A stretch of 44,023 nucleotides of DNA, taken from Terriglobia bacterium (GTDB lineage: Bacteria > Acidobacteriota > Terriglobia > JAIQFV01). The notes beneath the pieces were generated by a model, which saw only the letters and a program-made list of their open reading frames with translations, did not search any database and was not told the DNA's origin. A program made the translations under genes and the position numbers. Where the stretch lies: positions 1-44,023 of the forward strand of contig JAQUPQ010000033.1 in NCBI GenBank assembly GCA_028716525.1, written 5' to 3'. Positions 6,567 to 44,023 of this stretch are shown here, one piece after another. Position 1 is the stretch's first letter; every line of letters starts with the position of its first letter.

Positions 6567-7892
6567 TTACCGACGCACCAAGCCGGTAAGAAAGCTCAAG
6601 CCGTCGAGCACCAGTCGGAACTCTTCTTTTCGCGGCAACCGAAAGGCCGCATACAGCGGCACTTTGCTCAACTTGGAGGCCTGATAAACCGTGAGCACAC
6701 TGGACAGGGTATATGACACAGTGGAGGCGATGGCCGCCCCGTTCACTCCTATGCGCGGAATCAGCCACAGATCCAGACCCACCGTGGCAATCAACGAAAT
6801 CCCGGACACGGCCGTATTTATCTGAGGTTTACCAATCCCCGTCAAATAGCAGGCTTGCACATTAGTGTAACAAAATATTGTCGCGCCCGGCAGCAGTAAT
6901 AGCAGCGGGGTCACCGAGCCTTGAAATTTCGCCCCGTACACTAAGGGAATAGCCCAGGGAGCCACCACCGCCAAAGCTATCGACACGACGAGCGTCGCAA
7001 AAAAAGCCAGTGACGAAGAACGGAACACCACGTCGCCCAGGGTTGTGGCCGATCCCGAAGCCGCCACTTTAGGCATCAGAATCGTTCCGATCGGCCGTGA
7101 GATCATCCAAAGCAACTCCGCAAAGCTTCCGGAAAGCGTGTAAATCCCCACCGCACCCACTCCCAGGTAAAAATTGACGATAAAACTGTCCAAACGAAAA
7201 TTGAGGAATTGGATGACGGCTCCCAGGTGGGCCGGGACTGAGAATTTCAAAATCGTTTTGATTTCCTTCCAGGTGAAAAAAGGGGTCATCAAGGCGGAGA
7301 AGAAATTTCGCCGGAACAGCAACATCACAAAGATGGAAACCACATTCCCCATCAGATAGAGAAAAACCACCCAATTGACCGTCAACGAACTGCGAAAATA
7401 TTGAATCCCGATCGTTGTGACCACGGCAAACTGTGCCACAATGGGCACCAGGTTGTAGACGAGCATTCGTCCTTCACCCAACAAAAGGACATTGAAATAC
7501 AGCTGAAAGAAGGCAGCGGGCAGGAATATCAGAACGGTCATCACGCTGGGGGTCATTGCAAATTTACCAAGCAAGACTTCCGCCATGCCCACATGTTCCA
7601 TCAATAAAAACAATAACAGACCAGCCACGCCGAGGATCCACGATGCCCAGAAGGAATTTTTCAGCATCTGGTCGCTGGAGAACTTTCCGCTGCTGACGAA
7701 ATAAGACACGGCGGACGAAAAGCCCAAATCCATCATAAAAACCAGAAAAGTCCCCACCAGCAACGCCAGATTGTATTCTCCTCGTCCGACCGGCCCGAGG
7801 GCTCGAGCAATGAAAACCCCGGCCGCCATTCCGATGAAAAGGCGGACGACATTGGAGACGAAGGTGATGACGGTGCTTTGGAATAATCTCAT
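6567..7892 (-). CDS. Wzx-like oligosaccharide flippase (polysaccharide biosynthesis protein, MOP superfamily)
   Basis: A 441-residue very hydrophobic protein with about 12-14 predicted membrane helices. It begins FQSTVITFVSNVVRLFIGMAAGVFIARALGPVGRGEYNLAL, a start typical of the MATE/MVF/PST superfamily (quoted here as a long N-terminal helix pair only to identify the fold; key residues are the ARALGP turn and GRGEYN). Members move undecaprenyl-linked oligosaccharides across the inner membrane for Wzy-type polymerisation. It is the only flippase in the cluster. No Wzy polymerase is visible in the window, so either it lies to the left or the product is a single oligosaccharide unit. Confidence 0.88.
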   Translation of the reverse strand: MRLFQSTVITFVSNVVRLFIGMAAGVFIARALGPVGRGEYNLALLVGTFLVFMMDLGFSSAVSYFVSSGKFSSDQMLKNSFWASWILGVAGLLLFLLMEHVGMAEVLLGKFAMTPSVMTVLIFLPAAFFQLYFNVLLLGEGRMLVYNLVPIVAQFAVVTTIGIQYFRSSLTVNWVVFLYLMGNVVSIFVMLLFRRNFFSALMTPFFTWKEIKTILKFSVPAHLGAVIQFLNFRLDSFIVNFYLGVGAVGIYTLSGSFAELLWMISRPIGTILMPKVAASGSATTLGDVVFRSSSLAFFATLVVSIALAVVAPWAIPLVYGAKFQGSVTPLLLLLPGATIFCYTNVQACYLTGIGKPQINTAVSGISLIATVGLDLWLIPRIGVNGAAIASTVSYTLSSVLTVYQASKLSKVPLYAAFRLPRKEEFRLVLDGLSFLTGLVRR

Positions 7893-10359: not shown

Positions 10360-10419
10360 ACTCTTTGCGGCGTTGGAAGTTATCGCGGGCGTCCGGTCGT
10401 TTCCCGGGCGGAGCCTCAT

Positions 10420-10434
10420 GATCCCGTCGGGATC
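10420..10434 (+). promoter_or_regulatory. Short hairpin just before greA start
   Basis: GATCCC-GTC-GGGATC forms a 6-bp stem with a 3-nt loop ending 11 nt before the ATG. No good Shine-Dalgarno lies between it and the start, so initiation may be weak, leaderless-like or controlled. Functional role is a guess. Confidence 0.35.
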
Positions 10435-10445
10435 CCAAAACTCTC

Positions 10446-10913
10446 ATGCCTAATTCTGTCGTAAAACAACTTGAAATAGAGATCAAGGAAATGGAGTACG
10501 AGCTCCATAATGTTCTGCCGAAGGAGTTGGAGCGAGCTCGTCAGCTGGGTGATTTGCGCGAAAACGCCGAATACCAAGCCGCCAAGGAGCGCAAAGACTA
10601 CTTGATGGTGCGGCTGGGACAGATGAAGAAGCGCCTCGCCGACGCCTCCATGTTTAATGTGGACCGGATTCCACGAGGTCAAATTGGCTTCGGTACGACC
10701 GTGACCTTGAAAGACCTGCAACGCCGCGCGGAGATTGTGTATACTCTCGTGTCGGCGGAAGAATCGGATGTCAGTCAAGGAAAGATTTCCATCAGTTCGC
10801 CGATCGGGCGCAGTTTGATGGGAAAAAACGTCGGGGATACGGTGGAAGTGAAAACACCGGCGGGCACACGGGAATTCGAAGTATTGAAGATGGTGACAAT
10901 TCATGATTCCTAG
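10446..10913 (+). CDS. greA: Transcription elongation factor GreA
   Basis: 155 residues, normal GreA length. The N-terminal coiled coil carries the family signature around LRENAEYQAAKERKDYL (acidic tip residues inserted into the RNA polymerase secondary channel). The C-terminal FKBP-like domain includes ISSPIGRSLMGKNVGDTVEV. GreA stimulates RNA polymerase to cleave backtracked transcripts. It is first in a rightward group with the CDP-alcohol phosphatidyltransferase 42 nt downstream and an EamA transporter after it. The start has no strong Shine-Dalgarno, and a small hairpin sits just upstream. Confidence 0.96.
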   Translation: MPNSVVKQLEIEIKEMEYELHNVLPKELERARQLGDLRENAEYQAAKERKDYLMVRLGQMKKRLADASMFNVDRIPRGQIGFGTTVTLKDLQRRAEIVYTLVSAEESDVSQGKISISSPIGRSLMGKNVGDTVEVKTPAGTREFEVLKMVTIHDS

Positions 10914-30037: not shown

Positions 30038-30054
30038 TTTACATTCTCCTTAAA

Positions 30055-30172
30055 GCAGGTGCCGGGTTTCCGATATCAGGTCAACCGAGCTTGTTCTACT
30101 CGAAGGTGCCATGAAGATTTCCTGAAATCCCTCGTCTTCCTTCCTGACACCCGGCACCTGATACCTGACACC
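30055..30172. repeat. Two-arm inverted array of a degenerate 7-bp repeat between rpmJ and rpsM
   Basis: The left arm (30055-30082) is four exact-register 7-mers: GCAGGTG, CCGGGTT, TCCGATA, TCAGGTC. The right arm (30141-30168), on the opposite strand, reads TCAGGTA, TCAGGTG, CCGGGTG, TCAGGAA. CAGGTGCCGGG (30056-30066) is matched exactly by its complement at 30150-30160. The array begins 3-7 nt after the rpmJ stop codon in transcript direction and fills most of the gap to rpsM. Confidence 0.88.
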
Positions 30173-30175
30173 AAC

Positions 30176-36863: not shown

Positions 36864-37409
36864 TTAGTTCTGTCGAAACGGAAAACCCAACGACTTCAGC
36901 AACGCCCGCGCCTCTTGATCGGTGACCGCGCTGGTCACCACGGTAATGTTCATGCCCCGGATTTTGTCGACCTTGGCGTAATCAATTTCCGGAAAGACCA
37001 GCTGATCGCGCAATCCCAAGGTGTAATTGCCGCGGCCATCGAAGGACTTGGTCGATAGCCCCTTGAAGTCACGGACGCGTGGCAGGGCGATGTTGCACAG
37101 CCGGTCAAAAAACTCATACATCCGCTCTCCCCGCAAGGTCACCGAGACCCCGATGGGCATGCCGGCACGGAGTTTGAACGAAGCAATGGACTTCTTTGCC
37201 CGGGTGATCACCGGCTTCTGACCGGTAATGGCGGCCACTTCGGCCGTAGCCACATCCAGGATCTTGGCGTTGGAAATGGCCTCGCCCACACCCATGTTCA
37301 CCACAATCTTCCTGACCTGAGGCACCGCCATGGGATTCTTGTAGGAGAATTCCTTGACCAGGGCCGGCACGACTTGTTTTCGATAAACTTCTTTTAACCT
37401 GGCTGTCAT
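36864..37409 (-). CDS. rplE: 50S ribosomal protein L5
   Basis: 181 residues. The conserved [36 protein letters not shown] and [18 protein letters not shown] segments are present. L5 binds 5S rRNA and contacts the P-site tRNA. AAGGAG precedes the ATG. Confidence 0.98.
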
Positions 37410-37491
37410 TCCTGGACTCCTTGCGCCGTTCCTCCACGGTCATTTGCGTGGCGGCGTAAATTCGTTCGTTTCTCCTCGCGGCCTTAAGCGA

Positions 37492-37818
37492 TCAGTGCTC
37501 CAAGGTGGCCGCGCATTTCTTGCACACCCGGACCTTCGAACCGTCCTGCAACAGTTGATGTCCCACCCGGGTGGCTTGATTGCAGCTCGGACAAATCAAC
37601 AACACATTGGAAACATGGATCGCCATCTCGCGTTCCACAATTCCGCCCTTGATGTTTTTGCCCGGATTAGGGCGGGTGTGCCGCTTGATAAACATCACGT
37701 TTTCAACGACCAGTCGGGATTCCTGCGGAAGCACCTTCAAGACCTTGCCGGTCTTTCCTTTGTCCCGCCCCGTGATCACTTTCACCGTGTCATTTCTTCG
37801 AATCGATGGTACTGGCAT
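37492..37818 (-). CDS. rplX: 50S ribosomal protein L24 with paired CxxC motifs
   Basis: 108 residues. A KOW motif (IRRNDTVKVITGRDKGKTGKV) and RHTRPNPGKNIKGGIVE identify L24. The C-terminus has CPSC and CKKC about 20 residues apart, likely a zinc finger kept from the ancestral form. L24 starts large-subunit assembly near the exit tunnel. Confidence 0.97.
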   Translation of the reverse strand: MPVPSIRRNDTVKVITGRDKGKTGKVLKVLPQESRLVVENVMFIKRHTRPNPGKNIKGGIVEREMAIHVSNVLLICPSCNQATRVGHQLLQDGSKVRVCKKCAATLEH

Positions 37819-37843
37819 AATGACAATCCTCGATGTTTCTCCT

Positions 37844-38212
37844 TCAGATGACTTCGGGCGCCAGGGAAATGATCTTCATAAACTTCTTTTCGCGAAGCTC
37901 GCGGGCGACCGGCCCGAACACGCGCGTTCCCACCGGCTCATTGACTTCATTGATGAGCACGGCGGCGTTGTCGTCAAATCGAATATAGGTCCCGTCCTTG
38001 CGCCGCTGCTCCTTGCGCATGCGCACAATGACGGCCTTCACCACCTTGCCCTTCTTGACTTGCCCGTCGGGACTGGCTTCCTTCACGGCGGCGGTGATGA
38101 TGTCGCCCAGGCCGGCTCTCAGGCCGACATGACCGCCCACGGGCAAGATGCACGAGATCTTTCGCGCGCCGGAGTTATCGGCCACATCCAACATGGTTCG
38201 CATCATAATCAT
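37844..38212 (-). CDS. rplN: 50S ribosomal protein L14
   Basis: 122 residues from the ATG at 38212 (GGGAGC upstream; an in-frame start at 38230 adds six residues). [16 protein letters not shown] and [17 protein letters not shown] are standard. L14 forms part of inter-subunit bridges. Confidence 0.97.
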
Positions 38213-38260
38213 AAGCGCAGCTCCCTGCATCCCGCCGACCGCCGTCGTCGGGAAAAAAGT

Positions 38261-38581
38261 CTACTCGACGGCGCGAGTGATAATTCGTTTCAATCGCCAC
38301 CGCTTGCGTTTGCTGAGCGGTCGTGTTTCTTCAATTTCCACGCGGTCTCCGACCCGCGCTTCATTCTTCTCATCGTGGGCCAGGAAGCGGGACGTCCGCC
38401 GCACAATCCTTCGGTACAAGGGATGTGAAAACGAACGATCAACGTCGACGGCGACGGTCTTCTTCATCCGGGCACTGGTCACGACGCCGGTCTGCTTGTT
38501 TCGACGGCGGACTTGCGTTGTGGCCGCCTTGGCGGGCTCCGCATTCGCCGGTGAAGTGGTTTCCAAATTCTCGCTGCTCAT
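38261..38581 (-). CDS. rpsQ: 30S ribosomal protein S17 with N-terminal extension
   Basis: 106 residues; the S17 core starts about residue 30 (QTGVVTSARMKKTVAVDVDR) and includes HPLYRRIVRR and DRVEIEETRPLSKRKRW. The first 25-30 residues are polar, Ala/Thr/Glu-rich and absent from minimal S17. The start overlaps the rpmC stop by 4 nt. Confidence 0.95.
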   Translation of the reverse strand: MSSENLETTSPANAEPAKAATTQVRRRNKQTGVVTSARMKKTVAVDVDRSFSHPLYRRIVRRTSRFLAHDEKNEARVGDRVEIEETRPLSKRKRWRLKRIITRAVE

Positions 38582-38787
38582 TTTGTTGCTCCCACCTTTT
38601 GGTTGTCCCGCTCGCGTCGAATCGTCTTGATACGGGCAATGTCTTTGCGCAATTCCCGGATCTTCTTCAAACTCTCGGTCTGCCCCATCGCCAATTGAAA
38701 CCTCAGCCGAAACAACTGATCGGACAGATCCTTGTCCGTATTCAACAGCTCCTCGTCACCCATTTCTCGAATCTTGTCGGTCTTCAT
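38578..38787 (-). CDS. rpmC: 50S ribosomal protein L29
   Basis: 69 residues, two-helix L29: LFRLRFQLAMGQTES and RELRKDIARIKTIRRER. I chose the ATG at 38787 (MKTDKIREMGDEEL). A GTG at 38799 overlaps the rplP stop as GTGA and could be the coupled start, adding four residues. L29 lies at the tunnel exit. Confidence 0.94.
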   Translation of the reverse strand: MKTDKIREMGDEELLNTDKDLSDQLFRLRFQLAMGQTESLKKIRELRKDIARIKTIRRERDNQKVGATK

Positions 38788-38795
38788 AAGGCTCG

Positions 38796-39218
38796 TCACT
38801 CTCCGGCAGCGCCGCCGCGTGAAATGAACCGGGTCTTCAACCCGAATTTATGAGCTGCCAATGTCAATGCTTCCATCGCTTCCGCCTTGGAAATGCCTTC
38901 CATTTCATAAAGAACTTTCCCCGGACGGACCACCGCCACCCAGCCCTCGGGTGCGCCCTTCCCTTTTCCCATGCGGGTTTCGGCGGGTTTCTTGGTGATC
39001 GGCTTGTCCGGAAATACTCGAATCCAGACTTTTCCCCCGCGCTTAATAAATCGAGTGATGGCCACCCGGGCGGCTTCGATCTGGCGATCCGTTATCCAGC
39101 CGGGCTCCAACACTTTCAGCCCGTAATCACCGTAGCTCAACTCCGACCCGCGCCAGGCTTTCCCGCGCATGCGTCCACGTTGCTGCTTTCGATATTTCAC
39201 TTTTTTTGGCATTAACAT
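38796..39218 (-). CDS. rplP: 50S ribosomal protein L16
   Basis: 140 residues: [19 protein letters not shown] start, [20 protein letters not shown] and [20 protein letters not shown]16 helps organise the A-site tRNA binding region of the large subunit. Confidence 0.98.
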
Positions 39219-39261
39219 GCTTCACATCTCGCTGTTTAAAAATTCGATCCCCGGATTCTCT

Positions 39262-40011
39262 TTAAGTCCGGCCTTCCGCCGGCGCTTCCGCCGGTGTTTC
39301 CGCAGGTGCTGCTTCCACCACAGGTGTTGGGGTCGGAGCCGGCGCTGCTGCAGGTTTGGCCGGGACGGATGCGGAGGCCTTCTTAGTTTCAAAAATCTCC
39401 CCCCGATAGATCCACACCTTCACACCGATCTGCCCGTAGGTGGTCTTGGCTTCCGCAAACCCGTAATCGATATCGGCCCGCAGGGTATGCAGAGGCAACT
39501 GACCTTGCAGATACCATTCGGAGCGGGCGATTTCTGCTCCGTTGAGGCGACCGGAGCAGCGCACCTTAATGCCTTTGGCGCCGAAACGCTGCGCCGAGTC
39601 AACGGCTTTTCGCATGGCCCGTCGAAAGGCCACTCGTTTCTCCAACTGCATGGCAATCGCTTCCGCGACCAGCTGCGCATCCAGCTCCGGTTTGTTGACC
39701 TCCTGGATACCCAAATACACATCCCGCCCCGTGGCTTTCACGATCTCCTGCTTCAGCCGATCGATGTCGGCGCCCTTGCGCCCGATGATGATGCCCGGAC
39801 GCGACGCATGGATGGTGATTCGAAGCTTGTTGGCGGCGCGTTCGATTTCCACACTCGAGACGCCGGCATGACCCAGCTTCTCTTTCAGCATCTTCTTCAG
39901 CTTCAAATCCTCATGAAGCAAAACGCCGAAGTCCCGACGAGAGAACCAGCGCGAACGCCAGCCTTTGGTATATCCCAACCGAAATCCATAAGGATGTGTC
40001 TTTTGACCCAC
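39262..40011 (-). CDS. rpsC: 30S ribosomal protein S3 with Ala/Pro-rich C-terminal tail
   Basis: 249 residues from a GTG at 40011 with GGAGG six nt upstream, giving the expected (M)[12 protein letters not shown]; an in-frame ATG at 40059 adds 16 unrelated residues. The KH domain ([18 protein letters not shown]) and C-terminal domain ([20 protein letters not shown]) are intact. The last 40 residues (about 210-249) are Ala, Pro, Glu and Val. S3 lines the mRNA entry channel. Confidence 0.97.
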
Positions 40012-40068
40012 GATTTTCCTCCGTGCCGCACCGGACATCCGCACCGTTCCCGATGTCAAGTTCGACAG

Positions 40069-40428
40069 TTATTCCTCGATCTCCGCTTGTTGGTTCCGAT
40101 CGGCAATCTCCACGGTGATATGCGCCAGACGCCTCTGATAGCGATAGGCGCGCCCCATGGGAGCCGGTCGAATACGTTTCAACCTCGGGCCCTCATTGAC
40201 GTACGTCTTCTTGACGTACAATTCATCGACGTCCACAGACTCTTCCCTCTGCTGGGCGTTGGCGATCGCGGATCTCAGGACCTTTTCGACATGCTTGGCG
40301 CCGCGCTTTTTCGTGAAGCGTAGAATGTCAATCGCCCGCCCCACCTGCTTGCCGCGAATCAGATCCACCACGAGCCGCACTTTCTGCGGCGAAATTCTCA
40401 CGAATCGAACTGTGGCTTTGGCTTCCAT
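40069..40428 (-). CDS. rplV: 50S ribosomal protein L22
   Basis: 119 residues: VRISPQKVRLVVDLIRGKQV, VLRSAIANAQ and the tunnel-reaching hairpin segment KRIRPAPMGRAYR. The hairpin is of normal length, so macrolide-site geometry looks ordinary. Confidence 0.98.
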   Translation of the reverse strand: MEAKATVRFVRISPQKVRLVVDLIRGKQVGRAIDILRFTKKRGAKHVEKVLRSAIANAQQREESVDVDELYVKKTYVNEGPRLKRIRPAPMGRAYRYQRRLAHITVEIADRNQQAEIEE

Positions 40429-40486
40429 AATAATTTCCTGTTATCCCTTACTCTGGCGTTCTTTCGCCCGCGTTCATACTCCCGGC

Positions 40487-40876
40487 TTATGTCGACGGAG
40501 TCTTTGGCGCTGCCGGCGTTCCCGGACTGGCCGGTGCTGCGCCCGGTGCCCCGGCTCCACCCGCAGGAGCTCCCGGCACACCCGCCGGAGCCATACCCGC
40601 CGCGCGTTCGGCCAGAATCTTGGAACTATGTCCTTTGAAAATTCGCGTCGGTGAAAATTCACCGAGACGATGTCCCACCATGTTTTCCGTGATGTATACC
40701 GGGATAAATTTTTTCCCGTTATGCACGGCGATCGTGTGTCCGACCATTTCAGGCAAAATCTGCGACCGTCGCGACCACGTCTTAATGACCTTCTTGTCCA
40801 TGGTCTGATTCATCGCCTCAATCTTTTTCATGAGGTGATGATCGACGAACGGACCCTTTTTTATTGAACGACCCAT
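40487..40876 (-). CDS. rpsS: 30S ribosomal protein S19 with Ala/Pro/Gly-rich C-terminal tail
   Basis: 129 residues. The first 93 are a normal S19 ([50 protein letters not shown]). Residues 94-129 form a tail made almost only of Ala, Pro and Gly ending PKTPST. S19 lies at the top of the small-subunit head, so the tail could reach the inter-subunit or A-site finger area. Confidence 0.96.
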
Positions 40877-40895
40877 ATTAACCTCGAGTAGATTC

Positions 40896-41717
40896 TTACT
40901 TCCGCCGCTTCACGATCCATCGATCGGTGCGCTTGCTGTTGCGTGTTTTAAAGCCGCGTGTGGGTTGGCCCCAAGGGGTCACCGGGTGGCGGCCTCCCGA
41001 AGTCTTCCCCTCGCCGCCGCCGTGGGGATGGTCCACCGGGTTCATGGCGACGCCGCGATTGGTGGGTCGACGTCCCATCCAACGCGTACGCCCGGCCTTT
41101 CCCAAGGCGACGTTTTCATGATCCAAATTCCCGACTTGACCGATAGTGGCATAGCAGTTCACATCCACGATGCGAATTTCTCCCGAGGACAAACGCATCT
41201 GGGCATACTGCTCATCGCGCGCCACCACTTGGGCGGCGCCCCCGGCGCTGCGCACGAGTTGCCCCCCTTTGCCCGGTCGTAACTCCACATTGTGCACGGT
41301 CGTTCCAACCGGAATGTTGCGTAACGGAAGAGCGTTGCCCACAAGGATATCTGCTTGCGGTCCCGAAACCACTGTCTGACCCACCACCAAACCGCTGGGG
41401 TGAATGATGTAGCGACGTTCGCCGTCCACGTAGTTCAACAGGCAAATGCGCGCTGAGCGGTTCGGATCGTATTCAATCGTCGCCACCTTGGCAGGGATTC
41501 CCACCTTGTCGCGTTTGAAATCAATCAGACGATAATGCCGCTTATGACCGCCACCGCGGCGCCAAATGGTCAAATGGCCGTAGTTATCCCGACCGCTGAT
41601 TCTTTTCTTGGGTTCGGTCAAACTCTTCACCGGCCGGTCGGTCGTCAATTCCCTGTTGTCAACGACCGTATGAAATCGACGTGTCGAAGTATAGGGTTTA
41701 AATGTTTTTAGTCCCAT
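40896..41717 (-). CDS. rplB: 50S ribosomal protein L2
   Basis: 273 residues: an OB and SH3-like domain with [20 protein letters not shown], and the C-terminal [15 protein letters not shown] loop whose His is needed for peptidyl transfer. GGTAGGATC precedes the ATG. The 130-nt gap before it, back to rplW, holds the degenerate repeat array. Confidence 0.98.
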
Positions 41718-41741
41718 GATCCTACCAAACCTTCCTCATTG

Positions 41742-41847
41742 TGGAATGCCGATTTCGGACTGCGGAATGGAAGCTTCGGATTTAATATTGCGATTTTCGC
41801 ATTCAGCAATCAACAATCCGCAATCGGCCTTCCGCATTCCGCGATTC
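41742..41847. repeat. Two-arm inverted array of degenerate 7-8-bp repeats between rplW and rplB
   Basis: Both arms carry variants of GGAATGC and GATTGCG. The left arm runs 41743-41785; the right arm, on the opposite strand, runs 41792-41847. A 16-nt segment at 41744-41759 matches the complement of 41817-41832 at 14 of 16 positions. In transcript direction the right arm starts directly after the rplW stop codon (TAG). The left arm ends a few nt before the rplB ribosome-binding site. No ORF fits. Confidence 0.85.
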
Positions 41848-42141
41848 CTAAACATTCTCACCATATTCCGGCATCTTTTCGCCTTCCTGCAATTTCACGT
41901 AGGCTTTCTTCCAGTCCGGCTTGTAGCCGCTGGTGAAGCCCCGGCGCCGTTCCTTGCCCTGAAACAACGACGTGCGTACGGACTCCACTTTCACCTTGAA
42001 GATCTGCTCGACCGCCCTTTTGATTTCCACCTTATTGGCGTGCTGATCCACTTCGAAACACAGGGTTCGCTCGGCTTCCTTCTTGGAAAGCCCTTTTTCG
42101 GTAATGATCGGCCGGCGGATCACTTGGTATCGATTTTTCAT
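41848..42141 (-). CDS. rplW: 50S ribosomal protein L23
   Basis: 97 residues: YQVIRRPIITEKGLSKKEAE, VEIKRAVEQIFKVKVESVRT. L23 is at the tunnel exit and docks trigger factor and SRP. The start overlaps the rplD stop by 4 nt (ATGA). The stop codon is followed at once by the repeat array. Confidence 0.97.
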   Translation of the reverse strand: MKNRYQVIRRPIITEKGLSKKEAERTLCFEVDQHANKVEIKRAVEQIFKVKVESVRTSLFQGKERRRGFTSGYKPDWKKAYVKLQEGEKMPEYGENV

Positions 42142-42782
42142 GCCGTTTTCGCTCCTTCCGAGCCCAGACGATTCTGGAGATCCGTAATCGCCTGTTTGGA
42201 GAAGAAAACCTGGTCGTGTTTCAACACTTCATAGGTATGCACCTGGCTGCTGGGGCAAAACTTCACTTCCTTGAGATTTCGCGTGGCCCGGACCAGATTG
42301 GTGTTCTGGGGGTCGTCCACAATGAGGACATTTTTCTTCAAATCAAAGTTGTTGAGCAACGTCACCAGCTTCTTGGTCTTCCAGTCTTCCAATTTAAACT
42401 CATCGATCACAGTCAATTTGTGATCATTGATCTTGGCCCGCAGTGCCGACTTCAAGGCGCCGCGAATTTTTTGCTTGGGCATGGTGTAGCTATAATCGCG
42501 CGGCTGGGGTCCATGGGCCGTACCGCCATGACGCCACAAGGGGTTTCGACTGCTGCCCACGCGGGCTCGGCCGGTTCCCTTCTGCCTCCAGGGTTTCTTG
42601 CCCCCGCCGCGCACGGCTCCGCGGTTCTTCGTGGCATGCGTCCCGGCGCGTTTGGAGGCCAGAAAATACTGCACCACTTCCCATATCAAGCCTTCGTTGA
42701 CGTCGCCTGTAAAAACCTCATCCGACAAAGGAAGCTTGCCCACCACTTGATTCTGTAAGTTTTTGACTTCGACGATTGGCAT
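42138..42782 (-). CDS. rplD: 50S ribosomal protein L4
   Basis: 214 residues from the ATG at 42782 (GAGG five nt upstream; an in-frame ATG at 42815 overlaps rplC and is rejected). KRAGTHATKNRGAVRGGGKKP and WRQKGTGRARVGSSRNPLWRHGG form the tunnel-constricting loop. In E. coli L4 also represses the S10 operon; no leader was analysed here because it lies upstream of rpsJ near the edge. Confidence 0.97.
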   Translation of the reverse strand: MPIVEVKNLQNQVVGKLPLSDEVFTGDVNEGLIWEVVQYFLASKRAGTHATKNRGAVRGGGKKPWRQKGTGRARVGSSRNPLWRHGGTAHGPQPRDYSYTMPKQKIRGALKSALRAKINDHKLTVIDEFKLEDWKTKKLVTLLNNFDLKKNVLIVDDPQNTNLVRATRNLKEVKFCPSSQVHTYEVLKHDQVFFSKQAITDLQNRLGSEGAKTA

Positions 42783-42799
42783 ACCGACCTCAGAATTCT

Positions 42800-43438
42800 T
42801 TAACGCCGTTTGCATCGGCGGATCATCACGACGGTCCCGGGGTGTCCCGGAACTGCGCCCCTCACGAGCAGCAAATGATTCTCAACGTCCACCTGGACAA
42901 CTTGCAGATTTCGCGCCGTCACTCGCTCGGTTCCCATGTGTCCGGCAGCCTTCATGCCTTTCAACACACGCGACGGGAAGGCGGAGGCGCCGATGGACCC
43001 GGGAGCCCGGTGGAACATCGAACCATGTGTGGCCGCGCCGCCTCGAAAATGATGTCGTTTCACGAAGCCGGCAAAGCCGCGCCCTCGACTTGTTCCCACC
43101 ACATCCACCAAATCCGCCGGTTTGAACAGATCGACCAGGATCTTGTCGCCCACCTTCAACTCTTCGGATTTTCCTTCGAGCCGCACCTCTCGCAGCAAAC
43201 GCGTGGGCGCTACATCCCCGTGCTTCTTGAAATGTCCCATCATGGGTTTGGTTACTTTCTTGGGACTCACAAATTCCACCAAGCCCAGTTGCACGGCATC
43301 GTATCCATCCTTCGCCACAGTCTTTCTCTGCACGACGACACACGGACCCGCTTTAATGACAGTGACCGGAACAACCACTCCGTCTTCCTTGAAGATCTGT
43401 GTCATCCCTATTTTTTTTCCAATGATTCCGTTCACCAT
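42800..43438 (-). CDS. rplC: 50S ribosomal protein L3
   Basis: 212 residues: [37 protein letters not shown] and the [17 protein letters not shown] loop that reaches the peptidyl-transferase centre. It lies 78 nt after rpsJ. Confidence 0.98.
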
Positions 43439-43516
43439 TTCTCACCCTCAAAGCGAAACATGATCTTGAATCACAACATTAAAATGCCCGCCGCGCCGCC
43501 GATTTCGAGCACCCGC

Positions 43517-43849
43517 TCATTTCAAATGTTCGTGCCCAAACGCCTTAATTTCGACGTCCACGCCGGCCGGCAGATCCAGCCGCATCAGGGCATCCACGGT
43601 CGCCTGAGTCGGATCGAGTATGTCGAGCAACCGTTTGTGCGTACGAACCTCGAACTGTTCGCGCGACTTTTTGTCGGTATGCGGAGAGCGCAGTACGGTG
43701 ACCCGTTGCATCCGCGTCGGCAGCGGAATCGGCCCCGCGACGCGAGCTCCTGTTCGCTTGGCCGTTTCCACAATTTCCTGCGTCGACCGATCCAACGACC
43801 GGTGGTCGTAAGCTTTCAATCGAATTCGAATTTTTTCATTTGCCAGCAT
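43517..43849 (-). CDS. rpsJ: 30S ribosomal protein S10
   Basis: 110 residues: [37 protein letters not shown] and [12 protein letters not shown]. First gene of the S10 operon. S10 also serves as NusE in antitermination. GAGGATAATCC precedes the ATG. A 47-nt gap separates it from the tuf stop. Confidence 0.98.
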
Positions 43850-43896
43850 GGATTATCCTCGACCCTTGTCTGTTCGATTTATCCCCGGCATCCCTT

Positions 43897-44023
43897 TTAC
43901 TGCAAAATCTCGGTGACGCTGCCGGCGCCCACCGTCCGTCCGCCTTCTCGAATCGCAAACCGCAATCCCTTTTCCATGGCTATCGGCGTGATCAACTCGA
44001 TCTCCAAACTCACGTTGTCTCCC
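43897..44023 (-). CDS. tuf: Elongation factor Tu, C-terminal fragment (5' part outside window)
   Basis: The last 41 codons plus stop on the minus strand give an EF-Tu domain 3 end: [19 protein letters not shown] then [22 protein letters not shown]-Tu delivers aminoacyl-tRNA to the ribosome. Position just before rpsJ shows that the str operon runs into the S10 operon, as in many bacteria. Confidence 0.96.

Follow-up and report, generated by a model that had tools for sequence, protein, structure and literature searches.

A degenerate convergent heptanucleotide array between rplW and rplB in a Terriglobia genome

Heptanucleotides are the commonest of the longer simple repeats of prokaryotes, and a polymerase footprint together with slippage has been proposed for the preference for a step of seven (Mrazek and co-workers 2007, cited in PMC4679880 and PMC4692102); the preference of bacteria for this step is thus noted in print, and its reason, the polymerase footprint, is only a guess. 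Among the described systems, Rehm et al. reported the GGGAATC (GGGANTN) repeats of Xanthomonas and the GGGGA(T/C)T heptamer repeats of Nostoc PCC 7120, in which two nearby sites converge (70 cases in one genome, 75 in another; Rehm et al. 2015, PMC4692102). In the tRNA-Leu(UAA) intron of Nostoc, the P6b stem contains heptads of two kinds, Class I (TDNGATT) and Class II (NNTGAGT) (Kaasalainen et al. 2015, PMC4476775). Marine Beggiatoaceae carry TAACTGA direct repeats (MacGregor 2015, PMC4679880), and the tandem heptanucleotide elements of Geobacter metallireducens have been proposed to be regulatory (PMC2700814). In open-licence papers we found no description of such arrays in Acidobacteriota, and no case in which a single gap of an essential operon is filled again and again by unrelated heptad words.

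The stretch of DNA analysed here (the window, 44,023 nucleotides) is one contig of a 4.2-Mb draft genome of a Terriglobia bacterium (104 contigs; the focal genome, G000). Fifteen consecutive degenerate heptads (8 + 7) fill positions 41743-41847, between rplW and rplB, in two opposed arms (Table 1). In mRNA sense, the first base of the 5' arm lies directly after the rplW stop codon, and the last heptad is followed by 5 nt, the putative ribosome-binding region GAGGAAGG, a further 12 nt and the rplB start. The earlier note on this DNA had described a 130-nt gap occupied by opposed repeat arms, reaching from the rplW stop to just short of the ribosome-binding site and leaving both genes intact, and our analysis agrees with it in each of these respects.

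Table 1. Coordinates of the focal gap, its neighbours and further convergent heptad arrays of the focal genome (positions in the window unless a locus is named)
Feature	Position	Strand	Basis
rplW-rplB intergenic gap, 130 nt	41718..41847	-	sequence, gene calls, shuffles
5' arm (mRNA sense): 8 heptads, GGAWTKC type	41792..41847	-	period, shuffles
3' arm (mRNA sense): 7 heptads, opposite orientation (GMAWTCC type)	41743..41791	-	
GAGGAAGG, likely rplB ribosome-binding region, outside the array	41730..41737	-	reading of sequence
rplW (L23), intact, Ribosomal_L23	41848..42141	-	
rplB (L2), intact, Ribosomal_L2	40896..41717	-	
5S-23S and 23S-tRNA-Ala spacers, convergent GGAWTKC-type arrays	L067 (G000:C3) 7254-7340 and 10380-10482		
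Second convergent heptad pair in the window, GGTGTCA / TGACACC type	gap 30038..30175	-	period scan; second arm by eye

The focal array is another case of the known degenerate convergent heptad pairs, of the kind of Xanthomonas and of the Nostoc intron. The arrays studied here have in common with the Xanthomonas GGGAATC repeats the 7-nt step, the mostly intergenic position, the convergent pairs and a length that varies between related species, and perhaps also the degeneracy at set positions (PMC4692102). The units described by Rehm et al. are G-quadruplex candidates (GGG or GGGG), whereas the focal units carry GG tracts only and lack the tracts of at least three G in each unit that mark the narrow-sense Xanthomonas GGGAATC type and the G-quadruplex; in the wide sense of two nearby arrays in convergent orientation, both the focal gap and the GGAWTKC class belong here. 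Unlike the Xanthomonas and Nostoc repeats as that paper describes them, the arrays here are found in operons of ribosomal proteins and of rRNA, and many different, unrelated words are in use among relatives (PMC4692102). As in the Nostoc intron, degenerate heptads are part of a stem-loop, one and the same site takes two unrelated words and whole motifs are inserted, but the Nostoc heptads belong to a group I intron within a tRNA gene and are not presented in that account as a genome-wide class (PMC4476775). The TAACTGA heptads of Beggiatoaceae are also intergenic and also found near ribosomal-protein genes, but they are described as exact direct repeats beside start codons with a single inverted case (PMC4679880). 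The Geobacter metallireducens elements consist of four or five tandem heptads which are dispersed and in part intergenic, as here, except that one element class is reported to lie also inside genes (PMC2700814). The Mrazek survey shares the preference for a step of seven, although it covers simple sequence repeats, and convergent degenerate pairs go unmentioned in the two accounts that cite it (PMC4679880, PMC4692102). The focal copy alone carries small weight, being a decayed array without sign of selection on its fold. The gap is of wider use as one fixed, alignable site between conserved genes which has been refilled with unrelated words, so that step size, polarity, loop and rate become comparable across strains.

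The strong signal of the focal gap is its 7-nt period. The array matches itself at 0.49-0.55 at lags 7, 14, 21 and 28, against 0.11-0.34 at the remaining lags from 2 to 29. The matches summed over lags 7, 14 and 21 number 173, compared with 86.5 +/- 8.4 in dinucleotide shuffles, about 10 standard deviations up, and none of 20,000 shuffles reaches this sum. The inverted match taken alone is mildly unusual: the 14-of-16 match reported earlier does exist and is the best ungapped 16-nt inverted match of the gap, and 2 of 150 shuffles equal it. The longer inverted arms are 72-77% complementary across 30-32 nt. Variability among unit positions showed a weak excess (mean variance 1.06 versus 0.92 in the null), with tested windows that overran the array ends. 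The motif GGATTTCGGA, allowing one mismatch, had no excess in the window; units as degenerate as these escape it.

The same gap was surveyed at 110 loci (30 from a genome search and 80 from genome contigs); the named relatives found with the rplW alignment belong to Acidobacteriota, mostly Terriglobia. Two of the loci, L105 and L122, duplicate the records L031 and L027 and were removed from the lag, word and fold tests. The gap had been said to measure normally a few tens of bases, which is right for the median (45 nt) and not for every relative (90th percentile 121), so the 130 nt of the focal gap are long but not exceptional. At least 40 nt were present in 61 of the 110 gaps, and 17 of these reached p 0.002 for period 7; with the duplicates removed, period-7 arrays were found in 16-17 of 59 such gaps, the range reflecting differing random seeds. 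Lags 4-6, 8-10 and 12 were significant in none of the 59 gaps and lag 11 in one. About ten unrelated heptad words occur in these gaps, most of them as opposed pairs, including AGCTGAG, TTAGTGG, TCGTTGG, CGGTAGC, GCTGAAT, CGGAATG and ATCTAAA. Beyond the records of Acidobacteriaceae and Terriglobia, heptad gaps were found in three records titled Acidobacteria (L128, L131 and L141) and in one titled Deltaproteobacteria (L156). The neighbouring rplB-rpsS gap had period-7 arrays in 10 of 46 cases. In total, heptad gaps were seen in 27 of 105 rplW-rplB and rplB-rpsS gaps versus 0 of 35 rplC-rplD and 0 of 32 rpsS-rplV gaps; these zeros may in part be due to misplaced start codons, and coding sequence is plainly included in one rplB-rpsS entry (L094).

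The gap is a variable slot among relatives. G001, of the same family as the focal genome, has a single GGAWTKC arm directly after the rplW stop; its congener G002 has no array in the rplW-rplB gap, and other lineages carry unrelated words there. Arrays gain or lose heptads between congeners. In an orthologous array of G001 and G002, the alignment gave a difference of 28 nt in one arm and of 13 nt in the other, the flanks were about 87% identical and the loops were unrelated; the 13 nt, a product of automatic alignment, are not 14 and so lie off the 7-nt step. Besides the rplW gap, G001 and G002 were compared at three array places: at two the array persisted, and at one (L235) it was reshaped rather than kept. 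The 23S-tRNA-Ala spacer array has kept its place in G000, G001 and G002, the three genomes of the family, with changed loops.

The recurrence of the unit family elsewhere in the genome, which the earlier note had proposed to look for, was found. A three-unit GGAWTKC pattern (at most 3 mismatches) had 17 matches at eight places of the focal genome; five of these matches lie in the focal gap. The reversed control pattern had none. Opposed GGAWTKC-type arms are present in the 5S-23S and 23S-tRNA-Ala spacers of the rRNA operon. A word-independent scan for period 7, covering 396 kb plus the window (360 kb picked irrespective of matches and 36 kb for holding them), called 17 arms, 16 of which are non-coding, and the heptad words that co-occur in this genome include GGAWTKC, AGCTNTC, AAATTCC and GGTCTTK. 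The one arm called mostly coding is a near-exact, single-arm GGTCTTK array (L057 17854-17904, G000:C1). The second pair of the window has its arms at about 30143-30172 and 30056-30082, in what is, by reading of the ORFs, the rpmJ-rpsM gap; a 12-nt exact inverted match was seen there by eye.

Among 151 genomes of the class, 33 contained the GGAWTKC family, one of them with as many as 466 matches, and the reversed control was non-zero in 3 of the 151. One of these is G077, whose 42 matches of the control pattern, reversed and not complemented, probably belong to a family of heptads with a mirrored word. Of 100 arms in four genomes, 98 were non-coding according to a home-made simple codon-usage gene finder, although only 15-17% of the sequence is non-coding. 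The earlier note had read the precise placement as either selection against any other placement or a targeted mechanism. The first part stands insofar as arrays are tolerated only in non-coding DNA; a discrete targeted insertion is not supported, the slot being variable in relatives, and flush ends are to be expected where a short non-coding gap is filled up.

Among neighbouring arms of the same unit there were 23 inverted cases and 8 direct ones, five of the latter within one tandem array; this stricter arm scan left the two focal arms unpaired because the second is too worn. GGAWTKC pairs were convergent in 28 cases and divergent in 4, or 25 to 1 without overlapping arms, as counted at 63 loci (60 among the matches listed, L067, L068 and the window). 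The overlapping arms, three convergent and three divergent, were in some cases caused by the palindromic word GGAATTC. Over all units, the T-rich arm came first in 51 of 58 inverted pairs, which are not independent and about half of which are GGAWTKC. A fold-back copy that keeps the unit order was considered for the arms and not seen; the arms share the word and not the order: a common order of variants was detected at p 0.05 in 2 of 23 inverted pairs (median p 0.87).

We consider it fairly probable that the focal array is an old and decayed member of a genome-wide class of degenerate convergent heptad arrays, that it grew locally and that it is tolerated because its gap is non-coding. Such arrays would grow and shrink in place through slippage by 7 nt, which we infer rather than observe directly, and template switching between the arms by way of a DNA hairpin would hold one word in both of them. 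Since the arms could pair as a DNA hairpin in any 7-nt register, such switching would keep the word and scramble the order of its variants. The rplW-rplB gap would be among the few places of the operon where heptad DNA does little harm, and the focal array is presumably co-transcribed with the operon and able to fold; the focal copy can be explained without assigning any function to the fold. Slippage and exchange between arms do not explain why the step is seven, nor why there is one polarity. The convergent polarity is not predicted by slippage alone and points to shared ancestry, dispersal or use of the RNA; together with the loops of G033 it may leave room for a dispersal of copies.

In a rival explanation that we regard as unlikely, a transposase (e.g. 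Y1/RAYT) would have dispersed a REPIN- or MITE-like hairpin, each convergent pair being one such copy, later blurred by mutation. The fixed polarity of the GGAWTKC pairs and the hundreds of matches in some genomes would fit such an element, as would the loops of G033 (about 27 nt), whose ends are in common (TTTRGGG...CCCYAAA) and whose middles are not, a semi-conservation to be expected of copies of one element. Y1_Tnp proteins are present in 121 of the 151 genomes, with 10 matches in the focal genome, but none was detected in G033 (132 GGAWTKC matches, genome 88% complete) and only one in G004 (78 matches); no clear link of the arrays to a Y1/RAYT transposase as their mover emerges. REP and REPIN palindromes are tagged at their ends by GTAG or CGTC. 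The many near-identical, dispersed palindrome copies that characterize REPs and REPINs were not found for the focal gap, of which the focal genome has no second copy at E 0.001. The differences between orthologous copies, in the loops and by heptads in the arms, also argue against a mobile element, and so do the many unrelated words with only the period in common. As it occurs only once in the genome, the gap sequence also speaks against an assembly artefact. An artefact could be suspected in a draft of 104 contigs, but both flanking genes are intact and normally ordered and arrays occupy the same gap in other assemblies, so that it has a negligible probability.

A functional RNA hairpin of the S10 operon, with heptads as one way of building it, appears improbable for this gap; its role would be to draw the rplW stop and the rplB ribosome-binding site together, or to control mRNA stability or the yield of L2. 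Such a hairpin would suit the ends of the array, at the stop codon and just before the ribosome-binding region, and the operons of G053, where pairs often begin 2-6 nt after a stop and finish 2-12 nt before a start. As a group, heptad gaps also fold more strongly than the others (median z -3.77, n 17, vs -0.70, n 33; p 0.002), but the share of the gap enclosed by the widest helix is alike in the two groups (p 0.77). Selection for an RNA fold is not seen at the focal copy. Its RNA folds no better than shuffles (z -0.79 and -0.47), and 252 of 300 random reorderings of its own heptads fold as low or lower, so the array looks worn and not maintained; as DNA it folds somewhat better than shuffles (z -2.08). 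The absence of the array in G002 and of any Rfam match (E up to 1, positions 37000-44023) also count against a functional RNA. An ordinary intergenic leader, terminator or promoter in which repeats arose by chance is very improbable. In its favour, gaps of this kind typically measure some tens of bases and are internal to an operon, but chance is already refuted by the period, no promoter- or terminator-like site was found in the focal gap, and its sequence is not conserved in the relatives compared, contrary to the conserved leader named in the earlier note as the case against its own reading.

Broader than the local growth and decay that we favour is the thought that a general DNA process, stepping exactly seven bases in several phyla, seeds convergent pairs of fixed polarity. 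The word would vary with the lineage and the gap, the process would return to the same slots of essential operons, and the arms would be kept alike by exchange while the order of variants drifts. We regard this as speculative and rather doubtful.

Some further arrangements were observed in the class. In the ribosomal-protein clusters of G053 (L083) and G046 (L085), many gaps are filled by arrays of several different words, and the heptad pairs often reach from a stop codon to the next start codon. In G001, L070 2054-2528 (G001:C8) consists of tandem units of about 139 nt, each built of AAATTCC heptads, i.e., a repeat of repeats.
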